Assembly (NCBI GenBank): GCA_017512175.1 | Contig: JAFWHA010000017.1 | Span: 124,001-188,000 of the forward strand | Length of the DNA: 64,000 nt | Direction: 5' to 3' | DNA from: Candidatus Saccharimonadota bacterium | GTDB taxonomy: Bacteria > Patescibacteriota > Saccharimonadia > Saccharimonadales > Saccharimonadaceae | Shown: positions 14,497 through 28,878 of the stretch, one piece after another | Position numbering within the stretch: position 1 is the first letter of the stretch | How the letters are laid out: the number at the start of each line of letters is the position of its first letter | Made by a program: the position numbers and the translations under genes | The notes under the pieces: model-generated | Databases searched by the model: none | The model's input: the letters and a program-made list of their open reading frames with translations, nothing else | Told to the model about the DNA's origin: nothing

Positions 14497-16143
14497 ATGA
14501 GCAACTTAAAATTTATTTCCGTAAGAATAGCTGCTTTTATAGTGGCCACAACCCCAATACTTGCTCAACCCCTAGTATTGTTTACAAACCATTTTGGGAT
14601 TCAACCTACCAATTTGGCTCACAATAATAGTTTTAGTCATAGTAATTTTTCCGAAATGCCGTTACTTTCAAGTCTTTCCGTTGAAGATAATGAAGACTTG
14701 TCGACAATCTCGGACTCTGGTGCGGAGGATGAAAGACGAATTGCGATTAACGCAATTAATCCCGGTTATTCCACAGATAGTGGTAAGAACTCGGGAGAGA
14801 TGATAGAGTTAATTAACCTCACAGATGAAACGGTCTCACTTGATGATATCGCCATTATTTACGCTGCAAAGCCTACAGGCGGGAATGTATATGGAAAATC
14901 AACTGTATTATATAGTTTCCCGAAGGGGAGTAAATTTGTGGGAGAGAAGATTTTGATGAGGCTCGATTCTGCTCCAGAAACGACAGAAGGGAATCAAGAT
15001 GTGGTTTATAGTACTTCGCTTGCGATGACTGGCTCTCTTGCAATCGTGAAATTAGCGAATAACTATGATGCGCTGAATGTTCCAGATAATTCTGATTTTT
15101 CCGAATACGGGGAGGTGATTAACTCTGTCTGTTGGCTTGGAGGAGAAGAATGTCTGCCAATTTTTTCTACGACAGTGAAGTCGAGAGCCTATACGACAAT
15201 TTTGAGAAATGAGGAAACTGGAGAATACGCGCATGCGGCTGAGTATGCACCAGATTATAATGGAAAATTTTCTGGGCTTTATTTGCCGCCTGAAATTGAG
15301 GCTGAGTCGATTGAGAAAGATAATTTATTTGACGTGGATAAAGAGTCAGAATGTCAGGGGCTGATCTTTTCTGAAATCTTAAGTTATTATGATAGTGATG
15401 CTTCAGAGCAATTTGTTGAGTTTTATAATTCGTCAGCAGAAACGTTAAGATTAGATAATTGCAGAATAAAATATAAAAATAAATACTATGAGCTGGCTAA
15501 TTCTACAACATTGCTTTCAGCTGCGGAGTACTACGTTTTCAGGCCGGAATTTAGATTGACGAAAAATCCAAATACGGAAAATACTTTAGAACTTTATGAT
15601 GCAAATGGAACTGTAGTTTCTAAGCTTTCTTACCCACACGGTCAGAAGAAGGCGGCTTCGTATGCGCTGGTTGGCTATGATAGTGATGGGTCGGATAACT
15701 GGCAAATAACGTATATGGTTACTCCGGGTGCAGCAAATTATTATCAGGGATATCGTAGTTGTCCGGCGGGAAAGGTTATAAATGAGATTACTGGAAATTG
15801 CGTAAAAGTAACAACTATCTCTAATGCTTTAGCTGATTGTCCGGCGGGAAAATATAGGAATCCGGCTACTGGAAGATGTAAATCTATGGCTGGAGATGAT
15901 GACGGATCTTCAGAATGTAAAGAGGGGTACGAGAGAAACCCCGAAACTAATCGATGCCGCAAAATAAAGAGCAATAATGGTGCTGAATTTCCGATAGTAC
16001 CTATTACCGGGGAGGTGGAGCAGACTACTTTTATTGCGATTTGGGCAATAGCGGGAGTGGTTTTGTTAGGTGTTTTATATGTTATTTTCCAATTTAGAAA
16101 AGAAATTAAATATCTTTTAAGAAAGATTTTTAATAAATTTTGA
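14497..16143 (+). CDS. Exported lamin-tail-domain surface protein
   Basis: 548 residues. An N-terminal signal helix is followed by two lamin-tail-like beta domains: residues about 85-235 (INAINPGYST...GEMIELINLTDETVSL) and 280-415 (LIFSEILSYYDSDASEQFVEFYNSS). Then come three short Cys repeats of the form CxxGxxxNxxTxxC near 427, 447 and 475, a linker and a C-terminal membrane helix with a basic tail. Bacterial lamin-tail domains are found in secreted nucleases and adhesins; no nuclease domain is present. The promoter TTGCAT (14462)-17-TAACCT (14485-14490) lies six bases before the ATG, so the mRNA should be leaderless. A cell-surface adhesion or structural role is inferred. Confidence 0.65.
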   Translation: MSNLKFISVRIAAFIVATTPILAQPLVLFTNHFGIQPTNLAHNNSFSHSNFSEMPLLSSLSVEDNEDLSTISDSGAEDERRIAINAINPGYSTDSGKNSGEMIELINLTDETVSLDDIAIIYAAKPTGGNVYGKSTVLYSFPKGSKFVGEKILMRLDSAPETTEGNQDVVYSTSLAMTGSLAIVKLANNYDALNVPDNSDFSEYGEVINSVCWLGGEECLPIFSTTVKSRAYTTILRNEETGEYAHAAEYAPDYNGKFSGLYLPPEIEAESIEKDNLFDVDKESECQGLIFSEILSYYDSDASEQFVEFYNSSAETLRLDNCRIKYKNKYYELANSTTLLSAAEYYVFRPEFRLTKNPNTENTLELYDANGTVVSKLSYPHGQKKAASYALVGYDSDGSDNWQITYMVTPGAANYYQGYRSCPAGKVINEITGNCVKVTTISNALADCPAGKYRNPATGRCKSMAGDDDGSSECKEGYERNPETNRCRKIKSNNGAEFPIVPITGEVEQTTFIAIWAIAGVVLLGVLYVIFQFRKEIKYLLRKIFNKF

Positions 16144-16157
16144 ATCTGACCTCTGTA

Positions 16158-16195
16158 TTAGCACTCTTGACATGAGAGTGCTAATTTGCTACAAT
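16158..16195 (+). promoter_or_regulatory. dnaK promoter with perfect CIRCE operator
   Basis: TTAGCACTC (16158-16166), nine bases, GAGTGCTAA (16176-16184): the HrcA-binding CIRCE element without a mismatch. The -35 box TTGACA (16167-16172) is the CIRCE spacer, and TACAAT (16190-16195) follows at 17 bases. HrcA binding would block polymerase directly. Confidence 0.92.
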
Positions 16196-16206
16196 AGAGG
16201 TATAAA

Positions 16207-16233
16207 TTAGCAGTCGAGTAGTTCGAGTGCTAG
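16207..16233 (+). promoter_or_regulatory. Second CIRCE-like operator in the dnaK leader
   Basis: TTAGCAGTC-N9-GAGTGCTAG, one mismatch to the CIRCE consensus in each arm, just downstream of the expected transcription start. The spacing is the canonical nine bases. It would also form a hairpin in the 5' leader just before the ribosome site AAAGGAAG (16234-16241). Confidence 0.75.
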
Positions 16234-16246
16234 AAAGGAAGTAAAA

Positions 16247-18154
16247 ATGAGTAAAATTATCGGTATAGACCTCGGTACAACTAACTCCGCTTTTGCCTAT
16301 ATGGTTGCGGGTAAACCAGAGGTAATTACTAACGCTGAGGGTGATCGTACTACACCTTCTGTGGTTGCTGTAACTAAGAAAGGTGAGCGCCTAGTTGGTA
16401 AAGTAGCTCAGCGCCAGAGGGTGACTAATCCAAAGAATACTATTTATGGCATCAAACGTTTGATTGGCCGTAAGTATGATGATAAAGAAGTACAGCGTGA
16501 TCTTGATATTATGCCTTATAAAATTGTGAAAAAAGGTGGTAGCGTTGCTGTAGAAATGGATGATAAGAAATATACTCCAGAAGAAATATCTGCAATGGTA
16601 CTTTCTAAGATTAAAGCTGATGCAGAGGCTTTCTTAGGCGAGAAAGTTACGGAGGCTATTATTACGGTACCAGCTTACTTTGACGATTCTCAGCGTCAAG
16701 CGACGAAAGATGCTGGTAAAATTGCTGGACTTGAAGTAAAGCGTATTATTAATGAGCCAACTGCAGCTGCGCTTGCTTATGGTCTAGAGAATAAGAAAGA
16801 TGAGCAAATCGCAGTATTTGATCTCGGTGGCGGTACTTTCGATGTGTCTATTTTGGAACTTGGAGATGGTGTTTTCGAAGTGAAATCTACTAATGGTGAC
16901 ACTCATCTTGGTGGTGAAGATTTTGATAATATCATTGTAAATTATCTTATTGATGAATTTAAGAAAGAGTCTGGAGTTGATATCAGAGATGATGCGGCTG
17001 CTATGCAACGTATCAAAGACGAAGCTGAGAAGGCTAAGAAAGAACTTTCTAGCGCTACATCTACGGATATCAACTTGCCATTCTTAACTGCTGATGCGGA
17101 TGGGCCAAAGCATTTTGAACATACTTTGACACGTGCAAAACTAGAAGAACTAGTGGAGCCGTTGATCGAAAGGCTTGAAGGTCCAGTAGAGAAGGCTTTG
17201 AAAGATGCTAAGCTGAAGGCTTCTGATATTGACGAAGTAGTAATGGTCGGTGGTATGACAAGAATGCCAGCTGTCGTAGAGAAAGTGAAGAAGATTTTTG
17301 GTAAAGATCCAATGCAGGGTGTTAATCCTGATGAGGTAGTGGCAGTAGGCGCTGCTATTCAGGGTGGTGTGCTTCAGGGCGACGTCAAAGACGTGTTGCT
17401 TCTTGATGTGACCCCGCTTTCTCTAGGCATTGAGACTATGGGCGGTGTTTCTACTAAATTAATTGAAAGAAATACCACTATTCCAACTTCTAAATCTGAA
17501 GTATTTTCTACTGCAGCAGATAACCAGCCACAGGTGGAAATTCATGTACTTCAAGGTGAGCGTGAATTTGCAAATGATAACAAATCGCTTGGACGTTTCA
17601 TTCTTGATGGGATTGCTCCTGCTCCACGTGGTGTACCACAGATTGAGGTAACGTTTAATATTGATGCAAATGGTATCCTTAATGTAACTGCTAAAGACAA
17701 AGGAACTGGTAAAGAGCAATCTATTACGATTCAGAATTCTGGCAACATGAGCAAGGAAGATATTGAAAAGGCTGCCCATGAAGCTGAGGAACATGCTGAA
17801 GAGGATAAGAAAAAACGTGAAGCTATTGATGCTAGAAATCAATTAGAAAATGCAGTCTATCAAGCAGAAAAGATGCCAAAAGATTATAAAGATAAGATTT
17901 CTGATGATGATGCAAAGACTATTAAAGAAGCTGTAGTAGAAGCTAAGAAGGTGTTGGACGATAAAGATGCAGATAAGGATGCATTAGAGAAGGCAGCTTC
18001 TGAGCTTTCTGAAAAGATTATGCCAATTGGCGCTAAGATGTACAACAGTGCATCGGATGACAAAAAGGCAGAATCTTCAGATTCTAAGGATGATAAAAAG
18101 TCTGATAAAGACAATGGCGATGAGCCAGTCGAAGGAGAAGTGGTCGATAAATAA
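16247..18154 (+). CDS. dnaK: Chaperone DnaK (Hsp70)
   Basis: 635 residues, the usual length. The N-terminus [13 protein letters not shown], the phosphate motif [25 protein letters not shown] and [11 protein letters not shown] mark the ATPase domain; the substrate domain with [13 protein letters not shown] follows, then a helical lid and an acidic tail ending [12 protein letters not shown]. It folds proteins with DnaJ (63833) and GrpE (61346), which are encoded separately in this window. Two CIRCE operators precede it, and unlike most genes here it has a leader with a strong ribosome site. A terminator follows. Confidence 0.98.
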
Positions 18155-18172
18155 TTAGGCCACTCAGTATTA

Positions 18173-18208
18173 AAAGAAGCTCTGGATATTATTCGGAGCT
18201 TCTTTTTA
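18173..18208 (+). terminator. dnaK terminator
   Basis: AAGAAGCTC and GAGCTTCTT pair around a 14-base loop, followed by TTTT, about 20 bases after the dnaK stop. Confidence 0.85.
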
Positions 18209-18233
18209 TAAAGAAAATTTATTGTGTGGATAT

Positions 18234-18818
18234 TTATTTTTGATTACGCGAAGAGCGTGCTTTAGCTGGAAAGGCTAGGATTGTTCCAATCATGCCACCG
18301 ATTAGTGCAACGATAATATCCCACATGGTGTCTGCTATGCCAGGCTCGATTAATTGTTGCATGCTTTGTCCAAGTAACTGATCACAAGAAAATTCAAAAC
18401 ATTCCCAAAGTACTGCTGTAAGTGCTACGAAAGAGATGGAAAATAGAGCTTTAAACCACATTTCGTCTGGTCTGCCAGAAGCTTGATCGATAATTTCTCT
18501 AGCGCCGAAGGCGACTAGGACTCCAGATGCTCCATGTACGATTTTGTCGAATGGATAGATGATTTTATAGACGTCAAAATCGATACCCATAACCATAGCA
18601 GGAATGATAAAAATGAGGTATGCGATTTCAAAACGATTGGATACTTTGATGCCAAAGATGCGGAGGATATCCATGGCAAATGGTAAAGCCATAGTTGCGA
18701 GATAGCTCCAAATTTTTGTAAAACCGGTTCCGGGTATGAAGTGGACAATTGCGAGAATTGCGCCAGTTAGTAAAATACCCCATTTTAAAATCCATTTAAT
18801 AATATTTTGTGCTTTCAT
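18234..18818 (-). CDS. Membrane protein resembling the YjdF/DUF2238 family
   Basis: 194 residues with about five membrane segments. FDKIVHGASGVLVAFGAREI, an LWECFEF segment and ADTMWDIIVALIGGMIG form the pattern of conserved Asp, His, Glu and Asp in helices seen in the YjdF-like family, whose function is unknown. TAAAAT (18830-18825) lies six bases before the ATG, giving a leaderless mRNA. It is separated from the reverse transcriptase gene by 28 bases, which hold this promoter, so it is transcribed on its own or by readthrough from that operon. A membrane-embedded acid/His site suggests metal binding or hydrolysis, but that is speculation. Confidence 0.5.
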   Translation of the reverse strand: MKAQNIIKWILKWGILLTGAILAIVHFIPGTGFTKIWSYLATMALPFAMDILRIFGIKVSNRFEIAYLIFIIPAMVMGIDFDVYKIIYPFDKIVHGASGVLVAFGAREIIDQASGRPDEMWFKALFSISFVALTAVLWECFEFSCDQLLGQSMQQLIEPGIADTMWDIIVALIGGMIGTILAFPAKARSSRNQK

Positions 18819-18846
18819 GCGATTATTTTACCATAACATTTTATTT

Positions 18847-20373
18847 TTATCTATTATCAAACGAGAAAAGTCTGACTTGCTTGACGGGAATATTTTGTGA
18901 AAGAGTAGCAATTTTATCTTCATCTATGATGCTTTCTGTCGGCAGAATACCATCTTTTAGCCAATCTGAATTCCAGATTTTTAAATGTTCTCCCGCGTAA
19001 ATTTTTTGACACAACGGAGTTTCATAAATGACATTGCGATTAAGAGTGATAGTTAATCTTTGTAACCAGATATTTAGATAATCAATGTTTGGTACGAGAA
19101 TGAACTTACGTTTGATTTTTTCAAGTAAGATTAACTTTTCAGATTTTTGCCATTTTTCAGTTATTTTTCCAATTATTGCAATGCCAAGCCCGTACGTTCT
19201 AGGGCTGTCCAGCATGATGTCGATAATTAGAGAAATTATTTGATTGATACCATCGGGAGCTTCTTTCATTGGAAAGACACGTTTTTCGTATAGTTCAGCT
19301 AAAGCACGTTCGACGCTTCCAGATTGTGGATATTTTTTACCATATTCTCGTATTTCTAATAATTCTTTGATGAGGCTTTGATGGTAAATTTCGTGATGTT
19401 CGTTTGGGTACATCATCTCTACACGATTAGTAATTAGGCAGTATTTATCTTCTTTTAATGATCTTTTGATGATATTGGTTGTGATTCTGATTTTCTTGGG
19501 GTTTAATCTTAAGCCCATATCCCTCAAAAGGTTGTTTAGAGTAAGCAAAATAGTTTTTGCATCATTTTCGCTTTGTGTGAAAATTCTGTAATCGTCACGG
19601 TATCTAATAATATGATAATCTTTGACGATAGGGGGAATTGACGACTCTAATTTATTATCGATATAGAGAAGAATGATTTCTGCGATGAAGTGCATTAATT
19701 CTCCACTTTGCGGTAAGCCATTCATTTTTCCACCGACTAACTGTTTTAAAATAGATTCTATTTTTTTGCCTATAGTTTCTGCATATTGAGAATCGATTGA
19801 GTTACTGTTTAATAATTGGGAAATATATTCGAACTCGAGATTATCGTAGCAATTAGAAATATCCGCTTCTGCTAAATATTGATATTCTAATGCTAATTTT
19901 AGAGTCTCTCGCTCAACTTTATGATGCCAGTTTGTAATCATGATTTCATCTTGTGAGCGTTTTGTTTTTGATGCGATAGGAAAACTCTCACAACTGATAT
20001 GTGGGTTAGTGAAATGAAATTTTATAGAACGCGTTAATTCTTTCCAGCAACTTTCTTCAGTAATTGTATTTACTAAGAATACATATAATACTGGATGAAG
20101 TAATTTGAGCGCTCTCCAAGAATACTTGCTGTCTTTACTGGCGTAAATAGTATAATTGATATTTTTGTAATTATCTGGAAAATCAATTTCGGAATTATGC
20201 GTTTTGCAAAGTTCAGCTAAATTAGTACAGTCAGATATTTTAGAATCAATATTCTGGAGTAGTCTTTTGAAATTATAATATTCCGGGAGTCTTCCGCTAT
20301 AGTAGCTGTCGCTTTTTAAGAAGAAATTTTTCGCTTCATAATTATCGAGTTCTAAAACACTAGACGTTTTCAT
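18847..20373 (-). CDS. Reverse transcriptase of the defence/unknown-group type
   Basis: 508 residues. Polymerase motifs are clear: A, ADISNCYDNL (169-178); B, GLPQSGELMHFIAEIILLYID (about 219-239); C, RYRDDYRIF (257-265) with the catalytic YxDD; D/E, GLRLNPKKIRI (287-297). An alpha-rich C-terminal domain of about 170 residues follows. No maturase, endonuclease or integrase domain is present, so it is not a group II intron. Motif B lacks the SQ motif of diversity-generating retroelements and the usual retron form. The combination of LPQ, AEIIL and RYRDDYRIF recalls antiviral unknown-group (DRT/Abi-like) enzymes. It starts 10 bases after the Clp ATPase gene and must be co-transcribed with it. 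The DRT class is uncertain. Confidence 0.85.
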   Translation of the reverse strand: MKTSSVLELDNYEAKNFFLKSDSYYSGRLPEYYNFKRLLQNIDSKISDCTNLAELCKTHNSEIDFPDNYKNINYTIYASKDSKYSWRALKLLHPVLYVFLVNTITEESCWKELTRSIKFHFTNPHISCESFPIASKTKRSQDEIMITNWHHKVERETLKLALEYQYLAEADISNCYDNLEFEYISQLLNSNSIDSQYAETIGKKIESILKQLVGGKMNGLPQSGELMHFIAEIILLYIDNKLESSIPPIVKDYHIIRYRDDYRIFTQSENDAKTILLTLNNLLRDMGLRLNPKKIRITTNIIKRSLKEDKYCLITNRVEMMYPNEHHEIYHQSLIKELLEIREYGKKYPQSGSVERALAELYEKRVFPMKEAPDGINQIISLIIDIMLDSPRTYGLGIAIIGKITEKWQKSEKLILLEKIKRKFILVPNIDYLNIWLQRLTITLNRNVIYETPLCQKIYAGEHLKIWNSDWLKDGILPTESIIDEDKIATLSQNIPVKQVRLFSFDNR

Positions 20374-20383
20374 TTTCCACTTT

Positions 20384-22792
20384 TTATTTTAATTCGTTTT
20401 CAATCATTTCGCGCGTGATTGTTATTGACGAGCCTGTTCCTGCTTGCCCAGATAGTACATATTTGGCGACCATGTTTTCTACGGTTTTTTGTACGATACG
20501 TTTCATTGGTCTAGCGCCGAGCTGCGGATCATAACCACGTTCAACGAGGAGTTGTTTAGCTTCTGGCTCGAGGGTTACGGATATTTTTTGAGTGGCAAGA
20601 GTTTTGTTAGTGCCTGCAATGATGAGGTCAATGACTTTCATACAATCGGCAGGAGATAGAGGTTTGAATAAACAAATTTCATCGAAACGGTTTAAGAATT
20701 CTGGACGAAATTCATTAGTGGATAGTAACCAATTCATGAAGGTGTCCTTTGCGGATGATAAATCTACGCCGCTATTTACATATTCTCTAATTTTTTCGGC
20801 GCCAGCATTACTGGTGGCGATAACGATAGTATCCCGAAAAGAAACTTCTCTGTTCTTAACATCTCTTAAAATACCTTCGTCTAGCATCTGCAAGAGTGTG
20901 GTTAGTACTTGAGGGTGGGCTTTTTCAATCTCGTCAAGAAGTACGACAGAAAAAGGTTGTTTCATGACTTGTGCGGTGAGGCTTAGCTCGTCTTCGGAAG
21001 CATCGGCGATTAGCCTAGAAACATCTTTCGCTTCGACGAATTCATTTAAATCTAGACGAACAATTTTATTTTCGCCATTGAAATATACTTGAGACAATGC
21101 TTTGGCAAGTTCAGTTTTACCTACGCCGGTTGGACCAAGAAAGAGGAAAGTGCCAATTGGTCGATTTTCATTTCTGACTCCGGCAGCTGCCCTTCTTAAG
21201 GCATCAGAAACAGTCTTAACGGCGGCCTCTTGGTCAATCATTCTTTGGTGAATCAGTTCTTCCATGTTGAGCAATCTACTTTTGTCCGCTTCGTTTTCGG
21301 CGAGTTGAACTTTTACTCCGGCGGTTTTTTCAATTGCATTTTGTACACTTTCTGCGGTGATTAATTTATTTTCATCATAGCTACCAGCAATATCAAGTAA
21401 CGCTACAGCTCTACCCGGCATCTCGAGATCATGGATGTATCTCTCGCTCAGCCTGTAGGCCTCTTTGAGTGCCCAAATAGTATAAGAAACTTTATGTTGG
21501 TATTCAAGGAATGGAACTTGATCTTGCATGACCTTCATAGTCTCTTCTTCATTTGCAGGCGAAACCATGATTTTGTTTAATGTGTTAGCGAGAGTGGACT
21601 TTTTAGCAGAGATTTCTAGGAATTTTTGTCTGTCTAAGGTCAGGATTATCCTGAGTTTTCCAGCTTCTAAAATCGGCAGAAGGATATTAGTAATATCTAC
21701 AGAGCCAACTCCCTCCTCGAAGAATAATTGAGCATTTTCCAACCAAATGATAATGTTTTTTGCGGAATAAGCTTCTGACAGGACATGATTTACAAGGCCT
21801 TCAATTTGGCCACGTTCTGGTGCGGCGCTGATAAGGGCGGCAGCATCTAATTTAAAAATTTGACGAAACTTCAGACTATTCGGTAGTTTACTATCGGCAT
21901 CCATTAGCTTTTCGGCGAAGGCAGTGACAATAGTGCTACGACCACTTCCTTCGGTGCCAATTAAAGCTACATTCTGTCTGCCGCCACTAGTAAAAATTTG
22001 TATCATTTTTTCTAAAGTTTCTTTGTGTGAGGAGAGTTGTATTTGAGTTTCCATAGCTCCTTCACGAAGCCTTGAGATGTTAGTGCCAAATCTTTGGAGA
22101 ACTGGTATGTAGCCGAAACTCAGATCTCTTGCAATTCCACCGCGATGACGTTTCTTGCCTACACTTCTGACCAGACCGTTTAAATAATTAAACCAGATTA
22201 TGCCATCAAGTAAATCTTTCATATCTAGCTTCATGCGTTTTAAGATGAGTTCATTTTTTGGGTGATTAGCAATTATAGCTACTGCCAAAATAGCACCATG
22301 AATTTCTTCGGAGTCTGTACCTCTTTGGATTTTTTGGGCGGTTTGGAAAATTCCAGAAGGGTTTTCTGGGAGCTCTCTAGCAATAGCTTCTAATAGATTA
22401 GTGCCTATACCGTAGCGTACCGCTAAGAATTTACCGCTAGAAGTCTTACCAACTAAAGTTGCGACATCAGATGTCTTTGGATTTCTTGGCATACTTGCGA
22501 GCACATCGTTCGATAAAGCATCGTTTAGCTTGCCGGTGTTTTTAGCTGGTATAATGATAAGTTCTTTTTTAGTCCAGTATATAATCATGATTAGGAAGAT
22601 AGCGAGGGAAAATAATAACCAGAAAATAGAAATTTTCTGAAGCATAAAAATAATGCCAAATACTATAAGCGAAATAGTTGTTAGCACAAGTAAAATAAGA
22701 AGAGCTTTTTTGCCTAAGATTTTTCCGAGTCTAGCTTCTCTTGCTCGGAGAGAATTATAATCAAAAGATTCGAGTATAGTATTGTCGTTCAT
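20384..22792 (-). CDS. Membrane-anchored ClpB/ClpC-type AAA+ ATPase
   Basis: 802 residues from ATG 22792, which overlaps the upstream stop (ATGA) and has GGGGGTGA before it. Two membrane helices occupy about 29-72, then a Clp N-domain-like helical region (100-205). D1 has Walker A GTEGSGRS (279-286), but its Walker B reads IIIWLEN, lacking the usual Asp. D2 has GPTGVGKT (553-560), LLDEIEKAH, an Arg finger region (EFRPEFLNRFDE) and a C-terminal ARPMKRIVQ sensor 2. This is an unfoldase anchored on the inner face of the membrane, with a degenerate first ring. It lies between a small membrane protein and a reverse transcriptase in one operon; the substrate is unknown. Confidence 0.85.
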   Translation of the reverse strand: MNDNTILESFDYNSLRAREARLGKILGKKALLILLVLTTISLIVFGIIFMLQKISIFWLLFSLAIFLIMIIYWTKKELIIIPAKNTGKLNDALSNDVLASMPRNPKTSDVATLVGKTSSGKFLAVRYGIGTNLLEAIARELPENPSGIFQTAQKIQRGTDSEEIHGAILAVAIIANHPKNELILKRMKLDMKDLLDGIIWFNYLNGLVRSVGKKRHRGGIARDLSFGYIPVLQRFGTNISRLREGAMETQIQLSSHKETLEKMIQIFTSGGRQNVALIGTEGSGRSTIVTAFAEKLMDADSKLPNSLKFRQIFKLDAAALISAAPERGQIEGLVNHVLSEAYSAKNIIIWLENAQLFFEEGVGSVDITNILLPILEAGKLRIILTLDRQKFLEISAKKSTLANTLNKIMVSPANEEETMKVMQDQVPFLEYQHKVSYTIWALKEAYRLSERYIHDLEMPGRAVALLDIAGSYDENKLITAESVQNAIEKTAGVKVQLAENEADKSRLLNMEELIHQRMIDQEAAVKTVSDALRRAAAGVRNENRPIGTFLFLGPTGVGKTELAKALSQVYFNGENKIVRLDLNEFVEAKDVSRLIADASEDELSLTAQVMKQPFSVVLLDEIEKAHPQVLTTLLQMLDEGILRDVKNREVSFRDTIVIATSNAGAEKIREYVNSGVDLSSAKDTFMNWLLSTNEFRPEFLNRFDEICLFKPLSPADCMKVIDLIIAGTNKTLATQKISVTLEPEAKQLLVERGYDPQLGARPMKRIVQKTVENMVAKYVLSGQAGTGSSITITREMIENELK

Positions 22793-23163
22793 AAGGTCAC
22801 CCCCATAACTGTGAGGACTATACCAGCTATTACTCCGATCGGTGCTAGTGGCCATAATACTATAAGTACTGCTCCGAAAATTATTTCAAGAAGCATAACG
22901 ATGATGCCAAAAATGATGATAAAGAATCTAGTAAAAGCACCAACAATTCTGGAAATGAGTCTGTCAAAGAAAGCACTTAATCTGCTGCCAGATGACTCCG
23001 CATCTGCACTTGCGGAAATTTGACGATAAGGCATAAAAAACGTCCTGAAAAGTTGGCCGACGGAAAAGAAATCTGCCGTATCGCTTAGTTTTGATTTTAG
23101 GGATTTTACAAAAATACTGAATCCTCGTAAATACCACCACTGGACTAGGTCGACCATAAACAT
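22789..23163 (-). CDS. Small membrane protein, partner of the Clp ATPase
   Basis: 124 residues: an amphipathic N-terminus (WWYLRGFSIFVKSLKSKL), an Arg/Ser polar stretch and one long or two close hydrophobic segments (about 75-122, FFIIIFGIIVMLLEIIFG). TATAAT (23175-23170) ends six bases before ATG 23163, so the operon mRNA should be leaderless. Its stop overlaps the Clp start by four bases (ATGA), so production of the two is coupled. A membrane adaptor or substrate-recruiting subunit for the ATPase is a reasonable inference. I do not recognise a named family. Confidence 0.55.
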   Translation of the reverse strand: MFMVDLVQWWYLRGFSIFVKSLKSKLSDTADFFSVGQLFRTFFMPYRQISASADAESSGSRLSAFFDRLISRIVGAFTRFFIIIFGIIVMLLEIIFGAVLIVLWPLAPIGVIAGIVLTVMGVTL

Positions 23164-23195
23164 ATTGTAATTATATAACTTATGCTAAAAATTAT

Positions 23196-23774
23196 CTAGT
23201 AGTTTAGATGGGCGGAGCGAGTTAATTTAATTAATTTTTTGGCGAGTTTTGGTATTGATTCTTCTTTGAAATTTTCTTTTGCTCCCCACCACCAAATTTC
23301 TCCGCAGATTGTCCACGATAGAATAGTAAATTTGTAACTAAAATTAGGCGGAGAGATATCTTTCCATGCTTCAGTTAGTTTTGGTTTGATTATTGCCACA
23401 GCTAGAAGTAAAGCTGCTATGTTATTGCTATTTATGACTGAGGCGTAGTATTCTTTGTGTTTGAAAATGAAATATAAAAGTTTGGAATATAAGACTTCTA
23501 AATTACTTTTCGTCTCTAAGGTTTCAATCATAAGTTCATTAAGGTCGTTTTGCATTTTGCTGTCAAAATGTTGAATGGCTTCATCTAGATTTTGATGATG
23601 CTCGTAGAATGTAGAAGTGTAGATATTGGCTTCGCGACTGACTTCGGTAACGCACATTCCGGCAACGTGCCCGCGTCTAATAAATTTTCCAATAACGCGG
23701 TCGATGGTTGATTGAACTTTGGTATAACGTTTGTCGAATTGATTTTTAATTTTTCTTCGAGCTTTGCCTTTCAT
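23196..23774 (-). CDS. TetR/AcrR-family transcriptional regulator
   Basis: 192 residues. The N-terminal helix-turn-helix is typical: a helix with DRVIGKFIRRGHVAGMCVTEVSREANIYTSTFYEHHQNLDEA-like spacing (about 25-68), in which YTSTFYEHHQNLDEA is the recognition helix and the Phe/Tyr-rich helix 4 of the family. The ligand domain (70-190) is helical with a Trp-rich stretch (CGEIWWWGA). It is divergent from pilB across 315 bases, where a perfect inverted repeat overlaps the pilB -10 box, so pilB is a likely target. The ligand is unknown. Confidence 0.75.
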   Translation of the reverse strand: MKGKARRKIKNQFDKRYTKVQSTIDRVIGKFIRRGHVAGMCVTEVSREANIYTSTFYEHHQNLDEAIQHFDSKMQNDLNELMIETLETKSNLEVLYSKLLYFIFKHKEYYASVINSNNIAALLLAVAIIKPKLTEAWKDISPPNFSYKFTILSWTICGEIWWWGAKENFKEESIPKLAKKLIKLTRSAHLNY

Positions 23775-23832
23775 TTTTCAACGTAATAAGATATGCCCTT
23801 TCCTACACAAAATAAGTATAACACCAATTTAG

Positions 23833-23859
23833 CTCTTATGATATAATTTAGGATAAGAG
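23833..23859 (+). promoter_or_regulatory. pilB promoter within an inverted-repeat operator
   Basis: CTCTTAT (23833-23839) and ATAAGAG (23853-23859) are exact inverse complements, 13 bases apart, centred on the extended -10 box TGATATAAT (23839-23847). A dimeric repressor bound here would block transcription; the divergent TetR gene is the obvious candidate. Transcription would start near 23854, leaving a leader of about 235 bases. Confidence 0.6.
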
Positions 23860-23977
23860 GTTTGTATTTTAGCATAAGCTAATAAAATTTAAGAATAACA
23901 ATTATAGATTTAAGAATAAATTAGATGAATATAAGCATAAAAGATATAGATAAAGGGCATTGAGTAATAGATTAGTG

Positions 23978-24073
23978 AAAAGATAAAAGTAGCGGATAAG
24001 GAAAAGATAAAAGTAGCGGATAAGGAAAAGATAAAAGTAGCGGGTAAGGAAAAGATAAAAATAACGGGTAAGG
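23978..24073 (+). repeat. 24-base tandem repeat in the pilB leader (four copies)
   Basis: Units of 24 bases beginning AAAAGATAAAAGTAGCGGAT start at 23978, 24002, 24026 and 24050; the first two are identical, the third has one change and the fourth three. A fifth, diverged partial copy runs to the ATG at 24090. In the pilB frame every unit carries a TAA, so it is not coding there. Each unit contains TAAGGAAAAG, which looks like a weak ribosome-binding site. The rest of the 315-base gap (23775-23977) is A+T rich with only the operator/promoter recognisable. Confidence 0.85.
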
Positions 24074-24089
24074 AAAGAGATATAAAGCA

Positions 24090-25718
24090 ATGGATGAGAA
24101 AGAGATACAAAGTAAACGTCGAGAGAACGAAGAAAAAGCTGCAGCACAGCGTGCTAAGATTTTGGGGCTTCCATATCTAGATACTCGTAATTTCGAGAAT
24201 GACATCCCACTTGTGAAGGGGTTACTAGACAAGAAGCAGATGCATACGGACTTTATTTTGCCATTGCAAAAGGGTGGAGAAGGTGAACATTTTCAATTCA
24301 TGGTGACGAGCCAGACTCCGCGCAGTGTTATTGATAAGATTCGCAAGGAGTATTTAGACAAAGGCGAGCGCACAGATTTCTTCTTGATTACAGATTCGGC
24401 ATATAAAGTTTTTATTTTGCGCTATGACCCGCCACAAGAAACTGATTATGATGACATTACTATTGCGGGCGAGGGTGATTCGGAGACATTAGCGGCAGTT
24501 TCCAAAGTATTAAACGAAGTGTCTACGGACAAGGTTTTTGATTATTTGCTTGACCAAGCAGATAAGTTAGGTGCATCCGATATCCATATTGAAAACTTAA
24601 GAAACGAAATTCGCATTCGTATGCGTGTAGATGGGCTTTTGCACCCAGTAGCGACGATTAATCGCGATCGCTATCGCATCTTCATGGGCGAGCTTTCTTC
24701 ACGCGCAGGTGCATCTACAGCGGCTACGACTCCGCAATCTGGGCACATGCAGAAAGATATTTATAGAGATGGCAGCTCGCACCTTTTGAATATTCGTGTG
24801 GAGATTATCCCTACGTTGTATGGTCAAGACGCAGTGCTACGTCTCTTTAACTTTGACGAAACTTTGCTTAATCTAGACCTTTTGGGACTTGGTACGGAAG
24901 AAAGGGCAGAAATAAATGAGGTTATCTCTCATCCGCGAGGATTAGTGCTGATGGTAGGTCCGACTGGCTCTGGTAAGTCTACTACGCTTTATTCGATTAT
25001 TAATGCTCTGAATACGACTGACCGTAAGATTATTACACTGGAGGACCCGATTGAGTATGGGATTACGGGTATTTCTCAGATTCCGATTAACACTACTGAA
25101 GGTGGCTCGTTCGCAGATGGGTTGCGTTCGGTGCTTCGTCTGGACCCAGATGTGGTGATGGTCGGCGAGATTCGCGATGCGGATACGGCGCGTACGGCTA
25201 TTCAGGCTTCCATTACCGGGCACTTGGTGTTGTCTTCTTTCCACGCGAACTCTACTTCGGCGGCTTTTTCGCGTATGATTGACATGATTGGTACGAATCC
25301 GATTTTCTCTAGTTCAGTACGCTTAGTGATCGCACAGCGTTTAGTAAGAAAACTTGCGGATAACAAAGAGCCATTTAAGCCAGATGAGGCGACGCTTAAA
25401 TATATTCATAAAGTATTTGAAGGGGTGCCAGAGGCGGCTTTGCAGGAACGTGGAGTGGACTTAAATAATATCACGCTATATAAACCTGTACCATCTGAAG
25501 AAATACCGTTCGGCTATAAAGGACGTACGGTAATTATGGAGCAGCTAATCGTGTCGGAAGACATCCAGTCGTTCATTCGGGGAGACGTAAAAGATATTAA
25601 TACGGATGCGATTGAAAAAACGGCCAAGAAAAATGGAATGTTGACTCTGGAGCAAAAAGGTGTGATTTCTGCTTTGCGTGGAGAAACGACACTAGAGGAA
25701 GTTTCTCGCGTAATCTGA
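24090..25718 (+). CDS. pilB: Type IV pilus assembly ATPase PilB (GspE family)
   Basis: 542 residues. An N-terminal helical part (1-140) is followed by the secretion ATPase core: Walker A GPTGSGKS (290-297), Asp box, Walker B LRLDPDVVMVGEIRD and His box ASITGHLVLSSFHAN. It powers pilus extension from the inner face of the membrane. The four-cysteine zinc site found between the His box and C-terminus of most PilB/GspE proteins is absent: no Cys occurs there. It follows a long leader with tandem repeats and a repressor-like operator. The pilin operon lies about 12 kb upstream; pilC, pilM and pilD are not in the window. Confidence 0.93.
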   Translation: MDEKEIQSKRRENEEKAAAQRAKILGLPYLDTRNFENDIPLVKGLLDKKQMHTDFILPLQKGGEGEHFQFMVTSQTPRSVIDKIRKEYLDKGERTDFFLITDSAYKVFILRYDPPQETDYDDITIAGEGDSETLAAVSKVLNEVSTDKVFDYLLDQADKLGASDIHIENLRNEIRIRMRVDGLLHPVATINRDRYRIFMGELSSRAGASTAATTPQSGHMQKDIYRDGSSHLLNIRVEIIPTLYGQDAVLRLFNFDETLLNLDLLGLGTEERAEINEVISHPRGLVLMVGPTGSGKSTTLYSIINALNTTDRKIITLEDPIEYGITGISQIPINTTEGGSFADGLRSVLRLDPDVVMVGEIRDADTARTAIQASITGHLVLSSFHANSTSAAFSRMIDMIGTNPIFSSSVRLVIAQRLVRKLADNKEPFKPDEATLKYIHKVFEGVPEAALQERGVDLNNITLYKPVPSEEIPFGYKGRTVIMEQLIVSEDIQSFIRGDVKDINTDAIEKTAKKNGMLTLEQKGVISALRGETTLEEVSRVI

Positions 25719-26865: not shown

Positions 26866-28878
26866 ATGATAAACAAAACAAACTATAGGGAAAAAACAAT
26901 CAACCACGGTTTAAGTATAAACGGTTATCAAAGGTGGGCCGTTAGCATTATCGTGGTATTTTTAATGGCTTTTACTACTGCTTTTGTGGCTTCCTCCGTT
27001 TTTGCGCCACAAAACATTACCAATGCAGATACTTTATACTTTAATTTTACTGGCTCAGACTACACTACCTCCGTCAAGTCTGCCGATAACGTAGTAATTA
27101 ACATGGAAGCAACACCTTCTGGTAATGTGGCAATTGCACATGATACTGTAACTACTATCACTAATAACCCAGATGGTTACCAACTATACTTTTCTATGGA
27201 TCAAATAGCAGATTATGATACCACCCATCCTGGTAATGCACTATATAAAGATGGTAATACTACTGTTTCTCAAATGCTGAAGCCGACTACTGCAACAGCC
27301 TCTGCTCCAGCAGTACTTGATAATAATACTTGGGGCTTTGCGATTCCAGCTGGACAGACTGGTGTTCCAAGCACTATGGATAACTTTGATGCTGCTTACT
27401 CCGAGACTTCTGCTAGTACGAATAAGTTCGCTTTCGCTCCACTACGTTCTTCTGCTGTTAAAGTCCAAGAACGTTCTGGCTCTGCTACTACTACCGAAGG
27501 AGATAATCTAGAAGTTTACTACGGTGCGAAGGCTAACTTATTGGTAGATTCCGGTCAATATACTGGTACAGTAAACTATTTTGTAGTGTCTGATACTTCT
27601 ATCTCTTCCTTTGACACTATCGCAGTTAACCCTACTGTAATTAGTCCGAATGGCGGAGAAGACCTAACTATTGTAACTAGCCTACATACTAACTATGCTT
27701 TTACTAGCTCTGATATTAACGTGACTATCACTAGCAAGACTGATAGTTCTAATTCTAAGGCTTGTGCTATTACTGATATTAACTCTGATACTGGAAACGT
27801 GAATATCGCTTGTACTACTCCAGCAATGTTTGCAGATGGCGATTACGAAGTGGAAGTGGAAATACCATCTTATGGCAAAGACTGGACTACGGACATTACA
27901 GTAGCTTCTCCTACTCCTACTTTCTGGAATATCACTTATATGCAGGAGATGACGACGGCTGTCTGTTCCACCGCTACGACTCCATCTAACACCGCACAAG
28001 AAGAAGACACCAACGGCTCCCATGCAGGCTCTTCTGCTTACGTTCCGACCAGAGTGCTTTACGACTGGCGAGGTAAAGATGGCACTGGAAGCATCACGAA
28101 CAAAGTCGCTCCAAGTAGCTCCAATGCGCAATCATACACTATTAGGAAGATGGCTGATGGTAACTGTTGGATGACAGAAAACCTCAACCTTCCACTCTAC
28201 AAAAACTACACAACTCCTGGCATGAACAAGAGCTCTAGCTTAACTGCGCAGCCAGTAGAAGTCTCTCAGAATGGCCAAGCGGTAACTACTTCTAGGACGG
28301 ATGCAGTTTACGGCAATATCACTTCTGATGGCATCTGGACTCCAGTCAAGGCCTCTAACTTGACTAATAACGATAATACTTATGCCCTGAACGGCAATAC
28401 TGCTTATAACGTTAATAGTGGCACGAGCTATGATAATATCTGGTACTACTCTTGGAGCGCAGCCACGGCCGGCTCTGGTAAGTCAGATATGGTAACATCT
28501 AGCGGTGATGCCCAGTACTCCATCTGTCCAATTGGTTGGAAACTTCCGACTAACTACACTAATAATAACTTTGCTAGTGGTGGAGCGCAGAAATCTTGGG
28601 GCTCACTACTGAACGCTTACGGTATTAGCCCTGCTAATCACGATACCACTTCCGAATACCAGATACTAGAAGCCTTCCCATTCAATCTTCCCCGCGCCGG
28701 CTACTTCATCTCGGGTGCCTTCCGGAATAACGGCGGCGGCGTCTGGTGGTCTTCTACTGCTTATAGTACTGCTACCTACGCTTACAACCTGAGCTTCGGC
28801 ATGACGGTCGTCAATCCGCAGTTCGGCACCAACAAGTACCACGGGTTTACTGTTCGCTGCGTGTCGGCTGGACTGTAG
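26866..28878 (+). CDS. Exported surface protein with FISUMP-type C-terminal domain
   Basis: 670 residues. A long basic N-terminus and signal helix (about 23-46, ending SSVFA) are followed by Ser/Thr/Asn-rich beta domains (50-340). From about residue 380 comes a domain with RKMADGNCWMTENLNLPLY, ICPIGWKLPT, WWSSTAYS and HGFTVRCV, the signature of the Fibrobacter succinogenes major paralogous domain, a C-type-lectin-like fold in secreted proteins. CGGAGGTG stands before the ATG. The last 180 bases or so are far richer in G+C than the rest of the gene. Surface binding is likely; the ligand is unknown. Confidence 0.75.
   Translation: MINKTNYREKTINHGLSINGYQRWAVSIIVVFLMAFTTAFVASSVFAPQNITNADTLYFNFTGSDYTTSVKSADNVVINMEATPSGNVAIAHDTVTTITNNPDGYQLYFSMDQIADYDTTHPGNALYKDGNTTVSQMLKPTTATASAPAVLDNNTWGFAIPAGQTGVPSTMDNFDAAYSETSASTNKFAFAPLRSSAVKVQERSGSATTTEGDNLEVYYGAKANLLVDSGQYTGTVNYFVVSDTSISSFDTIAVNPTVISPNGGEDLTIVTSLHTNYAFTSSDINVTITSKTDSSNSKACAITDINSDTGNVNIACTTPAMFADGDYEVEVEIPSYGKDWTTDITVASPTPTFWNITYMQEMTTAVCSTATTPSNTAQEEDTNGSHAGSSAYVPTRVLYDWRGKDGTGSITNKVAPSSSNAQSYTIRKMADGNCWMTENLNLPLYKNYTTPGMNKSSSLTAQPVEVSQNGQAVTTSRTDAVYGNITSDGIWTPVKASNLTNNDNTYALNGNTAYNVNSGTSYDNIWYYSWSAATAGSGKSDMVTSSGDAQYSICPIGWKLPTNYTNNNFASGGAQKSWGSLLNAYGISPANHDTTSEYQILEAFPFNLPRAGYFISGAFRNNGGGVWWSSTAYSTATYAYNLSFGMTVVNPQFGTNKYHGFTVRCVSAGL

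Follow-up and report, generated by a model that had tools for sequence, protein, structure and literature searches.

A putative abortive-infection polymerase of the AbiP2 family encoded between housekeeping genes of a reduced-genome bacterium

The closest described relative of the enzyme treated here is Abi-P2, the product of ORF570 of the P2-EC30 prophage, which is reported to give resistance to T5 (PMC9508834). In this polymerase, DNA synthesis is primed by Tyr61 and the Y61F variant is inactive; Tyr46 is dispensable, full activity being retained in Y46F, and the DNA-stacking Tyr245 of AbiK has its counterpart in Tyr282 (PMC9508834). More recently, the class 1 UG/Abi reverse transcriptases (RTs) have been described as homo-oligomers performing template-free, protein-primed synthesis (2026 paper, PMC13275509). 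In the limited open-access literature consulted, no description of AbiP2 in Saccharibacteria or in other reduced-genome bacteria was found. Here, we report on an RT gene of a Saccharimonadaceae bacterium, on its assignment to this family and on its occurrence in related genomes.

Family, predicted fold and active-site residues

The gene, located at 18847..20373 on the minus strand of the window (the whole stretch of 64,000 nucleotides that was analysed), starts with ATG, encodes 508 amino acids and is a real, intact gene with a complete RT core. Pfam detected RVT_1 (E 6.3e-15) and no other domain, hence no maturase or integrase; this agrees with a previous sequence-only reading of this DNA, which had noticed no intron, maturase or integrase features and had considered all of the polymerase motifs, YRDD included, to be intact. 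In fact, the catalytic Asp171 of motif A (codon 19861..19863, minus strand) is invariant in the alignments of relatives, while motif B, GLPQS, and motif C, YRDD, are present at residues 219-223 (19705..19719) and 258-261 (19591..19602), respectively, both on the minus strand.

An HMM search of RT classes, which had been proposed as a check, gave a clear assignment: the AbiP2 model of PADLOC scored 465 bits (E 7.8e-140) over residues 2-505, and the second-best class, RT_UG14, 105 bits; the Drt4 and Drt6 models reached at most 85 bits. The NCBIfam Drt4 model gave 66.5 bits against an equivalog cut-off of 450, the group II model TIGR04416 gave 66 bits against a cut-off of 300, and the Drt3b and group II models of NCBIfam were far under their cut-offs. 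Among solved proteins, 7r08 is the nearest in sequence (phmmer, E 2e-58, residues 5-503), and its record is entitled “Abortive infection DNA polymerase Abi-P2.” On these profile matches and alignments, the window RT is assigned to AbiP2, a known family of abortive-infection polymerases. The earlier suggestion that the enzyme resembles DRT/Abi proteins rather than group II, retron or diversity-generating retroelement (DGR) enzymes is thereby confirmed, and in all of the AbiP2 relatives compared the catalytic Asp residues, whose loss in orthologues had been named as a point to check, are kept. The label of “unknown-group” RT has instead to be abandoned, AbiP2 being a named family with a solved structure. 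A group II intron maturase was rejected (RVT_1 as the sole domain, TIGR04416 below its cut-off, no Rfam match), as was a DGR RT, given the AbiP2 profile match and the lack of space beside the gene for repeats.

The predicted structure leads to the same family. The AlphaFold2 model, obtained from the window protein together with 21 relatives, is confident (pLDDT 86.1, pTM 0.88) and contains a helical region from about residue 300 onward. Foldseek aligned it to 7r08 with an E of 1.5e-29 and a TM of 0.81-0.85, the runners-up being DRT6, UG15 and DRT4 at E of about 2e-12; with VIA-align, the match to 7r08 reached a Z of 37.8, at 2.3 Å over 459 residues (model residues 3-504). The second-best Z was 22.6, DRT4, DRT6, UG15, AbiK and AbiA spanned Z values of 14-23, and the RTs of DGRs, group II introns, retrons and DRT2 remained at about 13 or below. 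In the model, the C-terminal helical domain (about residues 308-508; 18847..19452, minus strand) superposes on the helical domain of Abi-P2 and is predicted to be the same domain, an alpha-solenoid replacing the thumb as in 7R08. The sequence-only reading was right in expecting a helical domain; since the model aligns with 7R08 over residues 3-504, this domain is not private to the protein, and the structure prediction proposed for the C-terminal part places it within the Abi-P2 fold.

The alignment with 7r08 also allows the residues studied in Abi-P2 to be located. The priming Tyr61 corresponds to Tyr32 of the window RT (codon 20278..20280, minus strand; phmmer alignment), which lies in the fingers loop, within LPEY aligned to LPAY of 7r08, while Tyr46 corresponds to Phe17 and Tyr282 to Tyr258, the tyrosine of YRDD. 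Tyr32 is invariant across 14 aligned AbiP2 members drawn from Gram-positive plasmids, a P2 prophage, other phyla and the host phylum. Among six RTs of other classes (UG14-, Drt6/4- and UG21-type), a Tyr is found in this column only in the UG21 RT L019, and its sister L018 is devoid of it. As Tyr32 is conserved and the catalytic triad D171, D260 and D261 is kept, with YxDD intact, the residues on which protein-primed, template-free synthesis depends are all present.

Genomic neighbourhood, distribution and turnover

The RT gene is placed, on the same minus strand, between a gene for a ClpA/B-like AAA+ ATPase upstream (20384..22855) and one for a DUF2238 membrane protein downstream (18234..18818), both regarded as outside the system. 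Only 10 nt separate the Clp-like stop from the RT start (20374..20383, minus strand) and 28 nt the RT stop from the DUF2238 start (18819..18846, minus strand), so that no ncRNA gene fits adjacent to the RT, and Rfam found no match over window positions 16000-25000. Furthermore, in relatives in which AbiP2 belongs to restriction-modification (R-M) operons, the gene overlaps or abuts its neighbours. The search for a neighbouring non-coding RNA that had been recommended was thus negative, and, as far as adjacent RNA genes are concerned, the tight spacing agrees with a protein working by itself rather than with a templated mechanism of the DRT2 or DRT9 kind. No R-M or other defence gene adjoins the window copy, in a host genome that is 72% complete and in which further defence genes may be missed.

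Other features of these flanks were observed. The 28-nt stretch before DUF2238 holds a TAAAAT −10-like element just 5′ of the ATG, and a −10-like element a few nt from this ATG recurs in all four genomes compared (window, L052, L060 and L061), which suggests, on the basis of the sequence motif, that transcription of DUF2238 may be leaderless or near-leaderless. A small membrane protein gene (window 22789-23163) precedes the Clp-like gene, and the N-terminus of the Clp-like ATPase is hydrophobic. The full-length Clp-like ATPase is present in about half of the genus, the other genomes matching the canonical Clp protein alone. A functional tie of AbiP2 to this ATPase was rejected: three of the six carriers of AbiP2 in the genus are devoid of the full-length protein, and most of the genomes with the Clp-like protein have no AbiP2.

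AbiP2 is rare in these bacteria. It was found in six of the 174 genomes of the genus and, with a strict cut-off, in 7/393 genomes of an order sample; looser counts gave 12/394 in the family and 6/380 in a phylum sample, at thresholds that other RT classes also pass, so that the true AbiP2 numbers there are lower. Of the genomes closest to that of the window in flanking genes, G447 has an RT 48% identical to the window RT at the same position, between the Clp-like gene and DUF2238, while the site is empty in the nearest sister genomes, G032 and G443, where the Clp-like gene is followed directly by DUF2238. A strongly supported tree of four flanking proteins joins the window genome to G032 and G447 to G443, each occupied site being thus paired with an empty one, and the two RTs sharing the site are sisters at 100/100; their 48% identity, compared with about 80% for the flanks, indicates a much faster divergence of the RT. 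Either an ancestral insertion has been lost twice or the site has been filled twice, and these data do not rank the two. Elsewhere in its genome, G443 carries an AbiP2 copy (L051) that contains a stop codon and has a garbled, decayed N-terminus. The patchy presence and the empty site in sister genomes imply that the window RT is not, as had been proposed, stably embedded in a housekeeping-like operon. The same site holds other cargos in four genomes (G515, G030, G021 and G501), namely DnaJ, acetate kinase, methyltransferase-like and membrane proteins, as read from their sequences; a defence hotspot was discarded, because these cargos point to rearrangement and not to a defence island. The site shows a gene of a defence family coming and going within a tight housekeeping array, with neither a mobile element nor a defence island in view, and neighbours alone are a poor ground for naming such a gene housekeeping.

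AbiP2 also occurs in other settings. Elsewhere in the phylum it is part of type I restriction operons, and in operons of this type from G397, G832 and a deltaproteobacterial MAG its neighbour is hsdR. On plasmids of Pediococcus and Lactiplantibacillus it is followed by a DNA methylase gene, and it is also found in P2-like prophages. The genus of the window has four lone AbiP2 genes (window, G447, G500 and G342). That of G500 lies just after the enolase gene, which has no adjoining AbiP2 in the related genomes compared, and that of G342 (L050) is beside a gene named from its sequence as RNase Y-like, with a poorly conserved protein downstream. All four lack the YTHS stretch that follows motif A in nearly all other AbiP2 members, so that the contacts within the oligomer or the length of the product may not be the same, and they form a moderately supported group (67/93 and 84/84 in two trees). 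A single origin of all the phylum copies was rejected (p-AU 0.0005), and one within the genus was not (p-AU 0.33). It could be imagined that the lone copies are one AbiP2 sublineage which moved as a bare gene beside the Clp-like, enolase and RNase Y-like genes, lost YTHS and acquired altered oligomer or product properties, perhaps in adaptation to a symbiotic, small-genome life, but we regard this scenario as unlikely.

Further defence-type RTs were noticed in the phylum: UG14-like (L007, L008 and L059), Drt6/Drt4-like (L009) and UG21 (L018 and L019). A single-protein query returned no close viral relatives of the window RT, and a profile query returned 32 loci. In L057 (AbiP2) and L059 (UG14-like), a recombinase-like gene and phage-like genes come after the RT gene, a gene content suggesting that these may be prophages of small-genome bacteria carrying defence RTs. 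With these data, the occurrence of a studied antiphage polymerase family extends to several lineages within a single phylum of reduced genomes.

The same genome also contains a DGR, on another contig (L125, G000:C12; 8929-9104, 9213-10388 and 11848-14004), with a DGR-type RT, an adjacent template repeat and a FISUMP-like cis target, whose mismatches are confined to template adenines (8/8 to 17/17 per 100 nt). A remote second target of this DGR lies within the window (26866-28878, plus strand), with a variable part at about 28700-28850; in the best stretch of this target, adenines account for 9/9 mismatches. This DGR locus is distinct from the AbiP2 RT.

Proposed mechanism and alternative explanations

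We consider it very probable that the window gene encodes an AbiP2-family abortive-infection polymerase acting alone as an antiphage system through protein-primed, template-independent DNA synthesis. What is observed here comprises the assignment to the family, the conservation of the catalytic and priming residues, the fold of the model, a layout as a single gene with no space for an ncRNA gene, and a patchy distribution with turnover at the site. For the catalytic part, the evidence from sequence and fold is strong. By analogy with studied relatives, DNA synthesis, a trimeric state and an antiphage effect would be expected. The gene is probably transcribed from the Clp-like gene, 10 nt upstream, and its product, following the Abi-P2 model, would form a trimer of bilobal subunits, each with an RT lobe and a helical lobe. 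The hydroxyl of Tyr32 would accept the first nucleotide, and the site formed by Asp171, Asp260 and Asp261 would lengthen this primer, with no template, into single-stranded DNA of undefined sequence, while the helical lobe would hold the nascent strand in the place normally taken by a template. Phage infection might then release or misdirect the polymerase activity, and the infected cell would die or the phage would be blocked.

Several defence RTs in the literature use a structured RNA encoded next to them as the template for a defined DNA product, and an ncRNA-templated enzyme like DRT2, DRT9 or DRT10, or a retron-like one, was therefore weighed. This is highly improbable for the window RT, in view of the 10- and 28-nt gaps, the absence of an Rfam match at 16000-25000 and the overlapping or abutting neighbours of the relatives in R-M operons; moreover, the structures of DRT2 (Z 12.8) and DRT9 (Z 11.1) are far behind that of Abi-P2.

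Somewhat less improbable, although still quite unlikely, is that a descendant of AbiP2 has been domesticated by the host and retained, along with the Clp-like and DUF2238 genes, for a housekeeping task (e.g., in DNA end or stress metabolism). A lone gene between housekeeping genes, the occupied site of G447 and the diverged stretch after motif A would agree with it, but 168 of the 174 genomes of the genus have no match, both sister genomes have the site empty, half of the six carriers have no full-length Clp-like gene and the RT has diverged much faster than its flanks. As for an inactive remnant of a mobile defence gene, the decayed state of the related copy in G443 would agree with it, but the window copy is full length with all of the family-invariant residues, which its 48%-identical relative keeps too, and this explanation has almost no probability. 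The single-protein AbiP2 system remains the preferred reading.

Comparison with known systems

The DGR RT that this genome encodes at L125 (9213-10388) has the RT core in common with the window RT and no further relation to it. DRT4, DRT6 and UG15 (9VDO, 9WY8 and 9L9S) share its general architecture, with Z values of 21-23, but the Drt4 and Drt6 sequence models score far lower than that of AbiP2. AbiK of Lactococcus (PDB 7R06, 7R07 and 7Z0Z), itself performing protein-primed, template-free synthesis, also combines an RT lobe with a helical lobe, although its helical domain is only loosely similar (Z 18.0 against 37.8 for Abi-P2). The closest counterpart is Abi-P2 of E. coli (ORF570, prophage P2-EC30; PDB 7R08). 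Unlike this prophage-borne protein, to which it is about 30% identical, the window RT is chromosomal and located between housekeeping genes, is without YTHS after motif A and has F17 in place of the dispensable Y46; the two proteins share full-length homology, the fold of both lobes, the catalytic Asp residues, YRDD, the priming Tyr and the single-gene layout.
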